This document shows positions 8,310-16,418 of a stretch of 53,823 nt of DNA, one piece after another. The stretch spans positions 1-53,823 of the forward strand of contig CALVSI010000007.1 in the NCBI GenBank assembly GCA_944358985.1. The letters are read 5' to 3'. The translations under genes were made by a program, and so were the position numbers. The notes beneath the pieces are model-generated. The model searched no databases. It saw nothing but the letters and a program-made list of their open reading frames with translations, and was not told the DNA's origin. This DNA comes from an uncultured Bacilli bacterium (GTDB lineage Bacteria; Bacillota_I; Bacilli_A; RFN20; CAG-826). Position 1 is the stretch's first letter. Every line of letters begins with the position of its first letter.

Positions 8310-10061
8310 ATGAATATGAAAAAAATTATCTTATCACTTCTTACTTGTGGTTTGCTTTTGACTCTCCCCAGTTGTGCGAGTCAAGAGAAAGAAGTTATCT
8401 ATCCGGATTTTGAATTGACACCTAGTGAAAAAAATTCTTGGGAGTATCTTTTAGATGAAAATGGTAAGCCAAAAGAAGAAATTACAATCGAATGGTATGT
8501 CAATGACTCGACTTTTTCTTGGCCCGGTTATGGTAACGATGTCGTAAGTAAAGTAATCAAAGAGAAAACTGGCATAACGATTAAATTTGTTACCCCGGTC
8601 ACTGACGACGGGCAAAAACTTGCCACTTTAATTTCTGGAGATGCGCTTCCAGATGTCGTTTCGGTCCAATCGTGGTATCAACAATGCAGTCAATTAGCTA
8701 TGCAAAATTATTTATTTGCAGTCGATGAATTGATGGACCGTTGGGCACCTAAAATGGAAGCCACTATGGAAGAAGATTTATGGAAATATTTTCAATTAGG
8801 AGATGGGCACAATTATGGTTTTCCCAATCTATGTTTTTCTAATAATTATTTGACCGGTGAGCAATTATATCCAAATGGTGGCATTTTGGTTAGAGAAGAT
8901 TGGTATAATGAAGTACTTTTGGCAACAGGCAACGATATGACGACGCCGCAAGGCTTCATTGATGGATGCTTATATATTAAAAATAAATATAGCGATTCAA
9001 TCCCATTTCAATTGGATGCCTTTACAAACGAAGGGAACAAATCAATTACTTGGCTTGCACAATATTTTGCTACACCATTTGAAACCGAAGAAGGCGAATA
9101 TCAAGATTTACGAACCGATGATCATTACATTCAAATGTTGCGCTTTTTAAACGAATGCAATAAGGCCGGCATTATTCGTAGCAGCAATTTTTCGGACACA
9201 TATTCTCAGTTAAAAACAAATATTTCTCGGGGTAAAGTTTTTGTTAGCGCTGGTACCCCACAAGATTATCAAGTTGCTTTTCAAAATTGTTATAATTCAG
9301 GCATTAATTATATTCCATTAGTTTTAAGAAATTACGATGGAGATGCGCCGGTTTTGCAAGATATTTCAGGACAAGGATATTTGTTCTCGATGATTTCTAC
9401 AAACTGCAAAAGACCAGATATCGTAATCAAATTGTTCGATTATTTGCATAGTGAAGAAGGACAACGGCTTGTTTCTTTCGGCATCGAAGGGGAAACGTGG
9501 GAATGGACGGATGAAACTAAGACTGAAATCAAGTGGACAGATAGATATATTTCCGGAGCGCTTAATTTAAACGAAGAAGATGCCGCTTGGCTACAAGGAT
9601 ATGGCTTAAACGCTATGACATTGATGATGAATATGTCTTATATCTTCAAATATCGTCCAAATGAAGGAAGAAAAGAGGAAGTTGTTTATATTGATAATCA
9701 AAAAAGACCTCTTACTCCTTATTCATATGATTTTAGACCATCATTTTTGAAACACGACACGGCCGACGACAACTATTTTTCAATTTCTACCAAAGCTAAA
9801 AAAATAGATATTAAATGGGCACAAGCCTTAATTGATATTATTCAAGCCGACGATTATTTAAGTGAGTATCAATCATCGATTGATTATGCGAATCGTCAAG
9901 GTCTTGATGAAGTTGTCGAATTTTATAAAAAGTCTTACAAGGATACTTTGGCTGTTCTAGGACTGGAACGTGGTTATCCTACTCATCAAGAAGGATATGT
10001 CGAGCCAGTTACTGGCCCAAATGGTGATTTTTCTTATTGGATAGGAGCAACCCATGAATAA
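8310..10061 (+). CDS. Extracellular sugar-binding lipoprotein (LplA type)
   Basis: Solute-binding protein that captures the imported glycan at the cell surface. The signal peptide ends in a lipobox LPSC with Cys22 as the lipid anchor. At 583 residues it matches the large LplA-type binding proteins that accompany LplB/YtcP permeases. Residues 40-130 hold the usual N-terminal lobe (TIEWYVND, IIKFVTPV-like strand, SGDALPDVVS). The ATG follows GGAAAGGAAA closely. The stop overlaps the start of the nucleoside-hydrolase gene by 8 bp, tying that enzyme to the transporter. Substrate cannot be read from sequence; context suggests a rhamnose- or pentose-containing oligosaccharide (inference). Confidence 0.92.
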   Translation: MNMKKIILSLLTCGLLLTLPSCASQEKEVIYPDFELTPSEKNSWEYLLDENGKPKEEITIEWYVNDSTFSWPGYGNDVVSKVIKEKTGITIKFVTPVTDDGQKLATLISGDALPDVVSVQSWYQQCSQLAMQNYLFAVDELMDRWAPKMEATMEEDLWKYFQLGDGHNYGFPNLCFSNNYLTGEQLYPNGGILVREDWYNEVLLATGNDMTTPQGFIDGCLYIKNKYSDSIPFQLDAFTNEGNKSITWLAQYFATPFETEEGEYQDLRTDDHYIQMLRFLNECNKAGIIRSSNFSDTYSQLKTNISRGKVFVSAGTPQDYQVAFQNCYNSGINYIPLVLRNYDGDAPVLQDISGQGYLFSMISTNCKRPDIVIKLFDYLHSEEGQRLVSFGIEGETWEWTDETKTEIKWTDRYISGALNLNEEDAAWLQGYGLNAMTLMMNMSYIFKYRPNEGRKEEVVYIDNQKRPLTPYSYDFRPSFLKHDTADDNYFSISTKAKKIDIKWAQALIDIIQADDYLSEYQSSIDYANRQGLDEVVEFYKKSYKDTLAVLGLERGYPTHQEGYVEPVTGPNGDFSYWIGATHE

Positions 10062-10974
10062 AATTAAGCCAAAAATTATTTTTGATACTGATATTGGCGA
10101 TGATATTGATGATGCTTTCGCTTTGCTATTTTTGGTTGAGAGCAAAGCGTTTGATGTCTTGGGCGTTACAACCGTTTTTCGTAATACTAGACAAAGAGCG
10201 CACATGGCCAAATATTTGCTCGAAGCATTAAATAGCGATATCAAAGTTTACGCTGGTTGTGATTATCCGTTGATTTCTAATCCTGATAAGTTGAACGTTG
10301 AAGCAATTCAAAAGAAAGAGAAAAAAGATCGCTATGGGATGTATCAACTTCCTCAATGGAGTGAAGAAATGGAGAGCGCTCAATTCGAAAAACAACATGC
10401 GGTGGATTTTATTATCGAACAAATACACAAATACCCTCATGAAGTTATCTTGTGTGGCGTTGGTCCTTTAACTAATTTTGCAATGGCATTAAGAAAAGAT
10501 CCTACCATCGTTCCATTAATCAAAGAATTTCGTTTGATGAGCGGTGGACAGAATTTAAATTTTGCCGAATGGAATGTGTTTTGTGATCCCGAAGCTAGCT
10601 ATATCGTATATAACTCAAATGTTAAGACTATTTGCATCGGCATTGACACTACATGCAAATTAGGTTTGTCAAAAGAAGACATCGATAAACTAATTCATTC
10701 GCAATCAAAAGCCATCAAAATTACTTATGACATGATGATGAAGTGGTTCGCGCATTATGCGTTTGAAGCACCTGTTATGCATGATCCGCTCGCAGTCGTA
10801 TCTATTATTAAACCAAACTTATGCCAGTATGAAGAAAAACCATTGACTGTTGACTTATCAAATAGAAGAGGCTTCATAGTCCAAGACGATAAAAAAGCTC
10901 ATAATAAACTAACTATATCAACTGATGTTAATGTGCGCGAATTCATAAATTTATTTATGAGTGTTATTTTATAA
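10054..10974 (+). CDS. Nucleoside hydrolase family protein (inosine-uridine type)
   Basis: Predicted cytoplasmic N-glycoside hydrolase that releases ribose from ribosides. The calcium and ribose-binding motif DTDIGDDIDDAFAL (about residues 10-23) and the C-terminal HDPLAVVSI segment carry the family active-site Asp and His residues. Length 306 is typical. It overlaps the binding-protein gene by 8 bp and sits inside a glycan importer operon whose last gene is a ribokinase, so a role in freeing ribose (or a similar furanoside) from an imported compound fits better than general nucleoside salvage. That substrate assignment is inference; the fold assignment is firm. Confidence 0.88.
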   Translation: MNKIKPKIIFDTDIGDDIDDAFALLFLVESKAFDVLGVTTVFRNTRQRAHMAKYLLEALNSDIKVYAGCDYPLISNPDKLNVEAIQKKEKKDRYGMYQLPQWSEEMESAQFEKQHAVDFIIEQIHKYPHEVILCGVGPLTNFAMALRKDPTIVPLIKEFRLMSGGQNLNFAEWNVFCDPEASYIVYNSNVKTICIGIDTTCKLGLSKEDIDKLIHSQSKAIKITYDMMMKWFAHYAFEAPVMHDPLAVVSIIKPNLCQYEEKPLTVDLSNRRGFIVQDDKKAHNKLTISTDVNVREFINLFMSVIL

Positions 10975-11014
10975 ATTATTTTTTGCATCTTAAGATGTTT
11001 ATTAATTGCCTAAG

Positions 11015-11066
11015 AAAGGAGGAATTAGTCAGTCAAATTAAAGGCTTAGCTGATTAATAAGACATT
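11015..11066 (+). promoter_or_regulatory. Leader with ribosome site bridged to the start codon by a hairpin
   Basis: A strong AAAGGAGG (11015-11022) lies 44 nt before the ATG at 11067, too far to act directly, and no other ribosome site is closer. Between them 11024-11032 pairs with 11050-11058 (9 bp, one G-U) around a 17-nt loop. Folding this stem leaves one base before it and eight after it, an effective spacing of 9 nt, which is ideal. A 12-bp palindrome CATCTTAAGATG (10986-10997) lies just upstream and may end the preceding message. Confidence 0.6.
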
Positions 11067-12716
11067 ATGAAAATCAACAAAATTAGTGTTGCACTTCTTA
11101 TGAGTGCCCTTGCACTTGTGGCCGGTACAGCCGCATTGACGCCAAGTGGCCAAGTTAAAGTTATGGCCGCCGATACGCAAGAAGTGCCTTACGACATCCG
11201 TGGAGGTGGTAGAATTACCTACACAGCAAGCGATGATGGCGATTCGGGATGGACTTATTTAAATGTTGTTTGCATGGAACAAACAACCCAAGGTAACGGC
11301 ATTTCTTTCCGTGCTCGTAATCATACAGGCATAACGACGCCATTATCGATTCAACTTGCCGACGGGAAAGGCGGAATGTACATGCCTAGCGCCGATGGCT
11401 TAAAGTATTACACATATGATATTTTCGGTAATAATGAAGTCGAAAAAACATATTTGTATGTGACAAATATTGAATTAGATCCATATTTCGATGGAATTAT
11501 TTATTTGCCATTTGCCAATTATACTAGCGAAGTCACTACACCTTCTTTAACCGGAGCGCCCGATTTTACAAAATTGTGGAAAATTAGTTTTGGCTTGCAG
11601 CCATTATTTAATGGATTTGCTGATTATACCATCGGCGATGTTTTTAATGCCGGTGGAATGAATTTGGACACTTCCGTTTTAAACAATGAAACTTTCTCGA
11701 CATTTTTTATCGGAGAAAATTATACAACAGGTGACATCCATATCAATCAAGGCATAATGAAAGATTTTGATCCGACGGGGAAGGATTATTTGGGTGGCAT
11801 AAATATTAGAACTTATACATCTGACACTAATAAAGGTCCAGTCGCCGACATTGTTGCGTCGGAACAGGGAATTTTTGGTTCGGGCTTTTGGATGCGAGTA
11901 AAAAATTACGGCAATGAAGTGTCACCGATGTTACAAGTCATGGGGTGCGAAGGAGACAATATGCTTCCAAGCGATGGAAAACCATTTCTATACTACGATA
12001 AAGAGGGCAATTATACCGCAACAATTGCCGCCAATCCATACAATGGATTTGTCATACCGGCCAATTTTGATGGTTTTATTTATGTACCACTTTCATCTTT
12101 ATATAATGGAAATCCTGGAACACCAGTTAGAATGGACTGGCTATATGGAATTTTTGTTAATGTAGACGCGTTGGCTTTTCCAAACGCTAATCTAATTTTT
12201 GGCGATGTATTCAATCATAACAACATGCTGACGGATGGATCTACTACCACTCATGCTTCTTTTGCTTCGCAGCGTCATGTATCTAACGAGACGGGCAAAA
12301 TATATCACTATCCGGGCTTTAGCGGCGAACTTGCGACGGCGTGGGCTGAAATGTTTTTAGAAGCCACTTATCCGTGTAATACGGCGGCAAGCCAAGTTTG
12401 GGAAGATATGAAAGCTGAATATGATGTTTTAAGTCAGGACGATAAAAATCTTCTTATAGAAGCTGTTTATTTAGGAAAGGCTGAAGAAGATAAAAATCTT
12501 GTCGAACAAGCAATGGAACGTTTTGATCTAGCTGTTTTAAGACAAGGTCTTGAGAATTTTACTTCCCGAACGATTCAGCCTTCTAATTCGATAATTATTT
12601 ATAATCAAGTCAACGATCGTGTTGTCGTCATAGTTTGCTTAGTTATAACGCTATCATTAATGGTCACAGGTGTTGCGTTTTTTATCAGCAAAAAAAGAAA
12701 AAAATTAAACGATTAA
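11067..12716 (+). CDS. Membrane-anchored surface protein with two beta-rich repeat modules
   Basis: No named family recognised. Signal peptide ends near VMA-A (residues 33-34). Two related modules follow (about 45-215 and 218-400). Each carries the sequence order G..FR.RN (polar), a YD..G turn, P..FDG.IY.P, and FGDVF..N..D. The second is introduced by FDPTGKDYLGG. A helical domain (about 420-500, with TYPCNTAASQVWEDMK) precedes a transmembrane span (518-540) and a basic tail SKKRKK, so the protein is held in the membrane with its modules outside. The same modules and helical domain recur in the genes at 12737 and 16418. A glycan-binding role is inferred from the operon. The start is set by the hairpin-bridged ribosome site. 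Confidence 0.8.
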   Translation: MKINKISVALLMSALALVAGTAALTPSGQVKVMAADTQEVPYDIRGGGRITYTASDDGDSGWTYLNVVCMEQTTQGNGISFRARNHTGITTPLSIQLADGKGGMYMPSADGLKYYTYDIFGNNEVEKTYLYVTNIELDPYFDGIIYLPFANYTSEVTTPSLTGAPDFTKLWKISFGLQPLFNGFADYTIGDVFNAGGMNLDTSVLNNETFSTFFIGENYTTGDIHINQGIMKDFDPTGKDYLGGINIRTYTSDTNKGPVADIVASEQGIFGSGFWMRVKNYGNEVSPMLQVMGCEGDNMLPSDGKPFLYYDKEGNYTATIAANPYNGFVIPANFDGFIYVPLSSLYNGNPGTPVRMDWLYGIFVNVDALAFPNANLIFGDVFNHNNMLTDGSTTTHASFASQRHVSNETGKIYHYPGFSGELATAWAEMFLEATYPCNTAASQVWEDMKAEYDVLSQDDKNLLIEAVYLGKAEEDKNLVEQAMERFDLAVLRQGLENFTSRTIQPSNSIIIYNQVNDRVVVIVCLVITLSLMVTGVAFFISKKRKKLND

Positions 12717-12736
12717 AATAATCGTTGGAGGTAAAT

Positions 12737-15307
12737 ATGAAAACATTCTTCGCTCTTCTATCGTTAGTTGCAACTGTTGGTTGTCTTTCTTTGGCAAGCG
12801 CTCCTATTCCAAAAAGTATCGATTATGTTCAAGCCGCATTATCGTATGAGGGGGATTTTGTTTTGGGAGCAAAGGTTGATTTTTTGGCCAATTCCGATGA
12901 ACAATCAACCGATTATGTCAGTGTAAATTTGTCCGATACAACAAATAACGGAACAAATTTCTTTGTGAGATTAAAAAATTTAACGAGCGAAGATGTTGAT
13001 TTACATCTTGTCGTAGAGAGTGTTAATGGCCATGGTTCCACAATTAAAGCTAATGGCCGATACACTCTCTATGATGAAACCGGTGAGATTCCCCAATCTT
13101 ATACTTCAATCAGTGGAGAATTCTTTACGCTTCCAAAAAATTTCAATGGCTATTTTTCAATTACAAATTATAATTTAGCGAGTCAAGAAGGTTGGCCTGG
13201 CAACGAAGGAAGTGAAAAAGATATTAAAAACTTGCGCGCTCTCCATTTTGGCGTGTGTGGCGGTTTATATGCTGGGGTAAGCATAGGAATTGGTGATATT
13301 TTTACGACCGACATTATGAATTTGGATGTTTCTAGTTTAGACGAAGAAGTTTTTCTAAGCACATTTGTGCCAATGAATGATTCGCCATATGTGGAAATTA
13401 CTCGTTTACCGGAAACGGATTTTGATGCGAATCATGATATGGATGGTGGCGTATTAGCTACCGTTCAATATATGAGTGAAGACATTTCAAGCTATTGGCT
13501 AATCCATCCAAAAGATAATAATTTATCTTCGACAGGTATTTATTTTAGATTGCAAAATGGGTGGGCGTACGGTTATTGGATTCAATTTTATATATTGGAT
13601 GGTAACGGTCATCGCATGATGTTAGGTTTAAAACAAAATATTTATCAATATGATAGCCAAGGAAAAAATAAAGAAATTAAAACCAGCAGGGAATTTGGAT
13701 CATATTTTTATATCGATGGATTATTTGACGGCTTTATTTTTATTCCTTATGCTTCTTTAGTTGACGATTCTACTTGGTCTGGCAATCAAAGCGCCCCGAC
13801 CATGGATTATACAAATGTATATTCATTAATATTTGGGTTATCAACAAAACATGATTATTCGGCGCAAACAATGTTTGGCGATATATTTACAGATAACACA
13901 ACTGTTTTTGATGGAAGTGAAGTCGGTCTAGACGAAATTGATACATATTTTGAAGCTGATGTTTATGGAAATGGCAATTACATAAATTTATCGCGTTTAA
14001 AAGGATATAAAGAAGAAACATTTTTGGATTATAGCAATGTCAAAAATTATCGTGAAACGACGATAACTGGTGGTGTAAAATTTAATGTAACGCAAGGGGA
14101 GGAAGATGTATTACCCTCCTTTATCATTGATTACGATTTTGATTTTCAAAATCAAATTGCCATTGCCATAAGGCTTAAAAACTATTCTTATGACTATCCA
14201 TATAAAATTGTTGTTAAAGACGATAGTGGCAGACAATGTTCATTGGAAGGTGAAATACTTGGTAACGTCTATTATTTAGATTTAAACGGTAAGTGCGTCG
14301 CCAACGATTGGGGAGGTAATCCAATTTTTGCCAAAATACCGATTGGCTTTGATGGTTTAATGATTATTCCATTTGCCTCGTTAGGTGGCGGGACACATTT
14401 AAACTTATCAAAACTAACTAGTTTAGAGTTTTTCGTCAGCTCAAAGTATGATTATGGCTTTGATGTGGCATTTGGGGAAATTGGTGGCATAGATAAAAAT
14501 CTTACATTTAATTCTCTATTATCTCCTAATGATTTGACCGATGAAGAGTGGAAAAACATTTATAAATTAAACGAATACGCCGAACTCGGTCATATTACAA
14601 GAGTCGAAGAAGAGGTGCTTTGTCCCATGATTGGTGACACCAAAATTTTAAATTCATTAATTTATGATAGCGACGAAGAAATGGCTAACGAGTTATTGAC
14701 CGATGACGCCGATAATCCGCTCACTTACGAGCGAAGTCCGGATGGTTTGCTCATTACTCCCGGCGAGTATGAAGTAGGACATGCAAATGGACCGTACTCT
14801 TGTTTGGTTTTATTGAATAATTCTAAATATGCCGACAGGACTACAATGCAATTGAGCGATGGTACGCTCGCAAAAGGATTGACATTATATGTTAAAAATC
14901 TTTCCTCGAGAGAAATCGGCATCTCACTAGGCTTTGATCAAATTTTAGAAGACAATAAAATTCAGCGTTGGACTTTGATTGGATATCCATCAATGTATTA
15001 CGGTTACGATGTAAATGTTGATGCAGAATACACTTTTTATTGCAAACGTGACCAATTTCAAATTCCAGTCGGCTTTGAAGGATATATTCGGATTCCCTTT
15101 TCTTCTTATGGTGTGCCAGATTGGTCGAGTACCAATCAGCCGTTAGATATCACTTCTTTAAGTGGTAATTTATATTTGACACAAGATAATCGTAGTTATG
15201 CAGGATTGCAGTATTTAGTGAAAAATGTTGGTGTTTATTTTAAAACGACAGCGGCCGCTAGTTTGTTTAATGAGGAAAACACCATTAAATCAAACATGGG
15301 TTTATAA
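12737..15307 (+). CDS. Secreted protein with four beta-rich repeat modules
   Basis: 856 residues, not matched to a named family by eye. The ATG at 12737 follows GGAGG with five-base spacing; an in-frame TTG four codons earlier is less likely. A signal peptide probably ends near VQA-A (residues 33-34). Four copies of the module seen in 11067-12716 can be traced (about residues 37-205, 216-400, 435-590 and 690-850), with motifs such as LFDGFIFIPYASL, TMFGDIF and FEGYIRIPFSS. Unlike its neighbours it lacks the helical domain and a C-terminal membrane span, so it may be released or held by partner proteins. The many modules suggest multivalent glycan binding (inference). Confidence 0.75.
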   Translation: MKTFFALLSLVATVGCLSLASAPIPKSIDYVQAALSYEGDFVLGAKVDFLANSDEQSTDYVSVNLSDTTNNGTNFFVRLKNLTSEDVDLHLVVESVNGHGSTIKANGRYTLYDETGEIPQSYTSISGEFFTLPKNFNGYFSITNYNLASQEGWPGNEGSEKDIKNLRALHFGVCGGLYAGVSIGIGDIFTTDIMNLDVSSLDEEVFLSTFVPMNDSPYVEITRLPETDFDANHDMDGGVLATVQYMSEDISSYWLIHPKDNNLSSTGIYFRLQNGWAYGYWIQFYILDGNGHRMMLGLKQNIYQYDSQGKNKEIKTSREFGSYFYIDGLFDGFIFIPYASLVDDSTWSGNQSAPTMDYTNVYSLIFGLSTKHDYSAQTMFGDIFTDNTTVFDGSEVGLDEIDTYFEADVYGNGNYINLSRLKGYKEETFLDYSNVKNYRETTITGGVKFNVTQGEEDVLPSFIIDYDFDFQNQIAIAIRLKNYSYDYPYKIVVKDDSGRQCSLEGEILGNVYYLDLNGKCVANDWGGNPIFAKIPIGFDGLMIIPFASLGGGTHLNLSKLTSLEFFVSSKYDYGFDVAFGEIGGIDKNLTFNSLLSPNDLTDEEWKNIYKLNEYAELGHITRVEEEVLCPMIGDTKILNSLIYDSDEEMANELLTDDADNPLTYERSPDGLLITPGEYEVGHANGPYSCLVLLNNSKYADRTTMQLSDGTLAKGLTLYVKNLSSREIGISLGFDQILEDNKIQRWTLIGYPSMYYGYDVNVDAEYTFYCKRDQFQIPVGFEGYIRIPFSSYGVPDWSSTNQPLDITSLSGNLYLTQDNRSYAGLQYLVKNVGVYFKTTAAASLFNEENTIKSNMGL

Positions 15308-15317
15308 GGAGGACATT

Positions 15318-16418
15318 ATGAAAAAGTATCGAATCGTCTCACTTTGTATTCTTGCTACTTTGATGGTTCTATCGACGAGTTGCCAAGGATCACAATTAAA
15401 AACTCCTAGTGGTATCAATCCAATCTGGATTGATGAGGTCGGATATTTATCGAAAGCAGCGACAGTAATTCAAGAAGATAATGTCCGTTACGTTATTTAT
15501 GAGACAAATGAAAAAATCAACGATGAAACAATTTCCTTTGCACTTAAAATCGGTCATTACGAAAATGATGCTTGGGAATATTCGAATCGCGAAATTATTT
15601 TAAAAGGTAGTGACTCTTCTTGGGATAAATATATTTTTTCACCTAGCGTCATTAAAGGCGAGTTTAAAAAAGGCGCCGAAACATATAATTATTTGTTGGC
15701 CTATGGTGGCAGAAAAACTTCAAATGACATAGCTAACCAAATCGGAATTGCCTATGCCAAAGAATTAACCGGACCTTGGATTAAACATCCTGAACCATTA
15801 ATAAAATATGATGCTGGTATTTATGGGGATGAATATGGTGCTGGCGCGCCTAGCTTAGTTAGTTATGACAAAAAAGGAAAGGTAAGAATTTTTTATAGTT
15901 ATGCCGAAACCAATTTGGCCAACGAGCGAGTTCTTGATGCTGATTTATCTAATTTAGATAACATCATTTTAGATAAAGGCACAAGACAAATCTCGGTCGA
16001 TGGGTTGAGGGATAATGCCGACATGACCATTTTAGCTAACGCGGATTTTGCTTTAGATGAAAACGATACTCTTTATGTTGTTCGAGATGTATATCCTTTA
16101 TCTAGCAATATTCCAGGTAACGCGACAAGTTTACAAGTCGCTAAAGCAAACGTGAAGATTCTTAACGATTTTGTCAATTACTCTTGGGAAGTTATTGAGA
16201 CATTTAATTCATCGAATACGATTGATTTTGATAATCCGGAATCTATGGGCTGGGATGAAATATATTCGGGGGCCTTTGTTCGAGATTCATATGGATACAT
16301 CAGTTCAACTCAAGACAAATTAGAATATATTTATTCAACGAGTGATGAACCAGAAGATATAAGCGATGAAACATATAAATTTTCACCTTTTTTAGCGATA
16401 AGGAGCACTAATTTTTAA
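15318..16418 (+). CDS. Lipoprotein with GH43-like beta-propeller
   Basis: 366-residue lipoprotein with signal peptide and lipobox-like STSC. I set the start at 15318, where AAGGAGGA (15306-15313) lies just upstream; the open frame reaches back to 15225 inside the previous gene. The mature part resembles the N-terminal domain of 16418-19102 and the protein at 19089, with the shared landmarks SPSVIKGEF, YNYLLAYGG, IGIAYAKELTGPWIK and a D.SNLD strand, as in five-bladed GH43/GH117-type propellers. It is the most divergent of the three: the RNHN.G..TD motif near the end of the other two is replaced by YSGAFVRDSYG, so it may bind rather than cleave. Confidence 0.75.
   Translation: MKKYRIVSLCILATLMVLSTSCQGSQLKTPSGINPIWIDEVGYLSKAATVIQEDNVRYVIYETNEKINDETISFALKIGHYENDAWEYSNREIILKGSDSSWDKYIFSPSVIKGEFKKGAETYNYLLAYGGRKTSNDIANQIGIAYAKELTGPWIKHPEPLIKYDAGIYGDEYGAGAPSLVSYDKKGKVRIFYSYAETNLANERVLDADLSNLDNIILDKGTRQISVDGLRDNADMTILANADFALDENDTLYVVRDVYPLSSNIPGNATSLQVAKANVKILNDFVNYSWEVIETFNSSNTIDFDNPESMGWDEIYSGAFVRDSYGYISSTQDKLEYIYSTSDEPEDISDETYKFSPFLAIRSTNF

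Follow-up and report, generated by a model that had tools for sequence, protein, structure and literature searches.

Layout of the 549-aa gene and its leader

The window, i.e. the whole stretch of DNA that was analysed, comprises 53,823 nt from an uncultured Bacilli bacterium. On its forward strand a nucleoside hydrolase gene is followed by two related surface protein genes, and the leader of the first of these contains a strong Shine-Dalgarno (SD)-like sequence, AAAGGAGG, at positions 11015-11022, while the ATG of the gene occupies 11067-11069. The spacer between them is 44 nt; the initial annotation had placed the SD at this distance 5' of the ATG, and its coordinates proved right on re-reading. 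The genes and the elements of the leader are as follows.

10054-10974, + strand: upstream gene, nucleoside hydrolase family (PF01156), ending 40 nt before the SD
11001-11011, + strand: arm of a competing hairpin, pairing with 11020-11029 (last SD bases and left arm of the putative bridge); -5.2 kcal/mol alone; excludes the bridge
11015-11022, + strand: strong SD-like sequence AAAGGAGG
11024-11033, + strand: left arm of the hairpin proposed as a bridge, from folding of the spacer
11034-11048, + strand: hairpin loop of 15 nt with a weak AAAGG, from folding and anti-SD duplex energy
11049-11058, + strand: right arm of the hairpin proposed as a bridge, from folding of the spacer
11059-11066, + strand: linker up to the start codon, unpaired in the fold and without an SD
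11067-12716, + strand: gene of a 549-aa secreted or surface protein, with a signal-like N-terminus and a hydrophobic and basic stretch at the C-terminus (by eye)
12737-15307, + strand: next gene, for a related surface protein; TTGGAGG, an ordinary SD, stands 5 nt before its ATG

The 549-aa protein had no match in Pfam or NCBIfam. ATG 11067 is the credible start of its gene, because the reading frame is closed just 5' of it by TAA (11058-11060) and the N-terminus resembles a signal peptide by eye. The next in-frame ATG (11100) was rejected as a start, as it would truncate the signal-like stretch (by eye) and has no SD. The initial annotation had named a true start elsewhere with a normal ribosome site as one of the findings that would overturn its reading, and no plausible alternative start was found. 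A leader peptide begun from AAAGGAGG was also rejected, there being no ATG, GTG or TTG 3-14 nt behind it. Two starts further downstream probably differ from those in the ORF list: the list opens the frame of the 856-aa surface protein at TTG 12725, and the likelier start is ATG 12737 with TTGGAGG just 5' of it (12725-12737); the 397-aa ORF listed from 15225 overlaps the preceding gene, and its likely start is ATG 15318, after TAAGGAGG (15225-15318).

A scan of the + strand between 10900 and 11200 found no promoter-like site. The same scan gave an 11-of-12 site 5' of the first transporter gene of the operon, with a count of sites not above that of shuffled sequence. The palindrome CATCTTAAGATG (10986-10997) was considered as an operator and discarded: the window holds a single perfect copy, and matches with two mismatches occur at chance level.

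Strength and spacing of the SD and the predicted hairpin

The usual anti-SD, CACCTCCTTT, was seen in a 16S gene of the same genus. For the same-genus genome G003 the 16S tail was visible only as GGAGGTG, on the opposite strand; the window's own genome gave no 16S match. With this anti-SD the duplex energy of AAAGGAGG is -11.9 kcal/mol, compared with -3.3 kcal/mol for the AAAGG in the loop and -0.4 kcal/mol at best within 11047-11066, so ATG 11067 has no SD at the usual distance. SD usage was surveyed in 189 ORFs from the window and a further 200 kb of its genome; as a simple longest-ORF rule defined them, the statistics include some wrong starts. Six-base SD matches were found 94 times at 5-14 nt from the start and 15 times at 15-64 nt, three of the latter arising from the 11015 site alone. 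Eight ORFs of the 189 have a distant six-base match and no near one; the full AAAGGAGG is found among these eight only before the 11067 gene, and in at least one of the others a GGAGG plainly stands close to the ATG. Starts with no clear SD are also common, amounting to 62 of 188 first ATGs and to 36 of 189 genes when any start within the first 60 codons is allowed.

The genome holds 58 AAAGGAGG sites, 57 of which were examined (one lies outside the fetched stretches). Thirty-eight of the 57 stand 3-14 nt before an ORF of at least 80 aa and 17 have no such ORF, several of these preceding shorter ORFs and one lying at a contig end. Only two sites are distant, and the second looks fortuitous. 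The 11015 site is the only convincing distant AAAGGAGG among the 57, and a full SD 44 nt away is really unusual here. Spacings between AAAGGAGG and ATG, collected from 37 pairs, range from 4 to 12 nt, with 8 nt in nine pairs and 9 nt in eight. At 922 of L122, AAAGGAGG is normally spaced before an ATC, after which a lysine-rich stretch stays open without any ATG (by eye); this may be an ATC start or a sequence error.

Folded alone, the spacer forms one hairpin of 10 pairs with a 15-nt loop at -8.2 kcal/mol, two of the pairs being G-U (28/54 and 33/49, the last two digits of the positions). The stem of 9 bp described initially is therefore present and one pair longer, joining 11024-11033 with 11049-11058. 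The predicted fold leaves A11023 and 11059-11066 unpaired, which bears out the effective spacing of 9 nt claimed at the outset, and this value is among the commonest spacings in the genome. The fold itself is unexceptional in its wider context: a 63-nt segment gives a z of -1.1, with 25 of 200 shuffles folding as well, and a 146-nt segment gives a z of -0.17 with a minimum-energy structure that differs from the bridging hairpin. Bridge geometry was defined as one stem, 5-12 nt left unpaired and an energy of -8.2 kcal/mol or lower. Dinucleotide shuffling of the spacer gave it 21 times in 2000; 45 of 4263 44-mers drawn from the sampled genome at matched GC had it, as did 5 of 188 other upstream regions. 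The chance odds that the spacer folds as a bridge are about 1-3%, and the case for a bridge is suggestive and not proof.

The mean pairing of the stem predicted at 37 C ranges from 0.39 to 0.74 across six sequence contexts, depending on the length of RNA folded, and from 0.29 to 0.77 in four contexts when the SD and the AUG are held open. The bridging hairpin and the pairing of 11001-11011 with 11020-11029 are both predicted and are mutually exclusive. Between 25 and 55 C the predicted occupancy of the stem in the window sequence increases, because competing folds melt first, and no melting occurs in the physiological range. The temperature tuning suggested by the initial annotation is not supported, as the stem is predicted to gain occupancy with heat, contrary to a heat-opened switch. 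Its other suggestion, a factor binding the loop, likewise finds no support; the leader matches no Rfam family at the gathering score, nor with E allowed up to 1.

The leader in relatives and the shared segment

The 100-nt leader matches fully in three of 224 family genomes, namely the window's own genome, G003 of the same genus and G021 of another genus, and the other 221 contain at most short, weak matches (E 1.6e-4 or weaker among the matches listed). A dispersed repeat was discarded on the same count. The three leaders are 99% identical and share the same stem; the single difference is A/G at 11020, within the SD and outside the stem, which gives AAAGGGGG in both relatives versus AAAGGAGG in the window, with predicted anti-SD duplexes of -11.0 and -11.9 kcal/mol, respectively. 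Differences amount to 1 in 92 nt of the leader, and to 22 in 1650 (G003) and 58 in 1650 (G021) of the 549-aa gene. At this level of divergence the leader seems to change no faster or slower than its flanks; it is not clearly more conserved, and the comparison gives no sign of selection on the stem. The check for covariation in relatives, proposed in the initial annotation, can draw on only these three leaders at 99% identity, in which the stem is the same in 3/3 and no covariation can show.

A search with the N-terminal region matched 10 of 279 genomes, seven of which lie beyond the near-identical three and hold distant homologues. Nine loci from these seven genomes were read (a tenth, L151, falls within one 737-aa frame with L148 and was left out). 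An adjacent SD, with duplex energies of -8.2 to -13.0 kcal/mol, precedes the gene in eight of the nine loci; the ninth, L142, lacks one close to its apparent start and is counted all the same. The apparent start at this locus (295-360, in G158), MKINKTPILL, comes directly after a terminator-like hairpin and a T-rich run (by eye). The gene directly follows a nucleoside hydrolase gene in six of the nine loci, as in the window, and these six genes, which carry an adjacent SD, match the 12737 gene of the window better than the 11067 gene. None of the nine is a clear orthologue of the 11067 gene, and the comparison informs on the family only. In the genomes covered, the split layout is limited to one recent lineage, and AAAGGAGG could be the own SD of the 11067 gene or a leftover of an older arrangement.

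The operon itself is shared over a longer distance. A stretch of about 21.7-21.8 kb (104-21838), which begins close to the contig start, ends with a PfkB kinase gene and codes for an ABC transporter, the nucleoside hydrolase, the surface proteins, a GH43-family protein and the PfkB kinase, is 97.3% identical in G021, and two other stretches of the window's genome are represented there only by short pieces of 65-85% identity. This pattern points to recent horizontal transfer or to mis-binned contigs. G003 is 98% identical over 78-31902, with about 99% in the first 10 kb and 95.6-97.4% from 24 kb on, and 94-95% identical to the two other tested stretches. In G003 the 549-aa gene also has a 42-nt insertion (14 codons) at about 11168, at the end of the signal-like region, which duplicates adjacent sequence.

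A proposed split ribosome-binding site and competing readings

Split ribosome sites are known mainly from phage T4. In the part of a review used here (PMC3014915), which describes Nivinskas 1999 and Malys and Nivinskas 2009 on the T4 split regions, a hairpin is reported to shorten the spacing from 22 to 5 nt in gene 38 and from 27 to 11 nt in gene 25, and these sites are backed by mutants and by DMS probing (gene 25) and are conserved in close T-even phages. In both T4 genes, as covered there, the SD is too distant from the AUG and the intervening hairpin restores a functional spacing. The 11015 site resembles them in its strong distant SD, the lack of a nearer SD and a predicted hairpin that leaves a functional spacing. 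Unlike the T4 sites, it precedes a chromosomal gene of an uncultured bacterium, its spacing would be reduced from 44 to 9 nt, and it is known by prediction and from three near-identical genomes.

In the E. coli thrS gene, which is autoregulated, the SD adjoins the start codon. Its split ribosome-binding site contains a hairpin that is accommodated without unfolding, and the single-stranded domain 5' of the hairpin is essential for binding, according to the portion of PMC3936740 used here. The two leaders are alike in being bacterial and chromosomal with a hairpin within the ribosome-binding region, and they differ in that here the SD itself sits 5' of the hairpin, where thrS has, in that account, a single-stranded domain. 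The cry3A gene of Bacillus thuringiensis has a sequence termed STAB-SD and, downstream of it, a ribosome-binding site of its own. The STAB-SD is SD-like, binds 16S rRNA and blocks RNase J1, and does not serve initiation, as stated in the part of PMC4113751 used. The common feature is a strong SD-like sequence well 5' of the start codon; in contrast to the present leader, which has no second SD near the start, the cry3A site is described there as lying near a mapped 5' end at -129. A narrow search of the literature for chromosomal split ribosome sites, mostly in open journals, led to T4 and thrS only.

We propose, with a probability of about 45%, that 11015-11069 is a split (bridged) ribosome-binding site like those of T4 genes 25 and 38. 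The anti-SD of a 30S subunit would pair with AAAGGAGG at 11015-11022, the hairpin 11024-11058 would remain folded and be accommodated by the subunit, and ATG 11067, effectively 9 nt from the SD, would enter the P site. Such a site, having arisen in this lineage, would most likely work constitutively and not as a sensor. The layout and its rarity are plain from the coordinates and the genome counts; that the hairpin forms in the cell and is used by ribosomes is our inference. The bridged site suggested in the initial annotation is thus upheld as far as AAAGGAGG is the only strong SD, none lies nearer and the hairpin leaves the usual 9 nt, and it is weakened by leaders that are near-identical, distant homologues without the layout and the occupancy of 0.39-0.74.

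A possible but doubtful explanation is that the ATG at 11067 is used independently of an SD, in the A-rich and weakly structured AATAAGACATTATGAAAATC, and that AAAGGAGG is a relic and the hairpin a product of chance; AAAGGAGG could, for example, once have been the SD of a hydrolase-adjacent gene before the 549-aa gene arrived. The frequency of genes without a clear SD agrees with such a start (62/188 first ATGs; 36/189 with any start in 60 codons), the same hairpin geometry in 5/188 other upstream regions agrees with a chance hairpin, and the weaker AAAGGGGG in two of the three genomes agrees with a relic SD. Six distant operons have a 12737-like gene with an adjacent SD right after the hydrolase, so the 11067 gene may have been placed between the hydrolase and its older partner. 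This history is reconstructed and not traced, and a relic does not readily account for near-full SD complementarity, which would need keeping, or for the spacing left by the hairpin, which is the modal one. The competing folds, the like hairpins in 5/188 other upstream regions and the SD-less genes tell against the bridged reading, and from the SD-less genes it follows that an SD may not be needed.

It is rather unlikely that the upstream SD binds the 30S subunit without placing it directly on the start, either as a standby site, from which the subunit would slide or hop past the hairpin, or as a STAB-SD, which would block a 5' exonuclease and stabilise the mRNA. Standby ribosomes are described in the consulted part of PMC3936740 as able to pass hairpins at an energy cost, and Bacillus cry3A provides in that of PMC4113751 a precedent for an SD-like sequence with no part in directing initiation. 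This reading is weakened here: the + strand between 10900 and 11200 gave no promoter-like site, and hence no hint of a 5' end shortly before the SD, and no separate downstream site with its own SD is found near ATG 11067, where an SD-less start is possible. A most improbable reading is a switch with two states, set by the partner of the left arm: pairing upstream (11001-11011 with 11020-11029) would mask part of the SD, pairing downstream would form the bridge and leave the SD free, and something would shift the balance. Both folds are predicted and exclude each other, but any AU-rich leader can be expected to have alternative folds, the z over 146 nt is only -0.17, no better than shuffled sequence, no Rfam family matches, and a leader present in three near-identical genomes only affords no phylogenetic test. 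Highly improbable, too, is the composite account of a split site that acts as such a switch, bridges a longer spacer (44 nt) than T4 genes 25 and 38 and moved between genera on the 21.8-kb segment with the surface-protein operon.

If the bridged reading is correct, the leader of the 549-aa gene would exemplify, in a bacterium and outside phages, a naturally occurring split ribosome site whose bridge is unusually long, and gene finders that seek an SD at 5-12 nt would miss such starts. The 11015-11069 leader would also be a compact test case for the size of structure that the 30S subunit can hold between the SD and the start codon.
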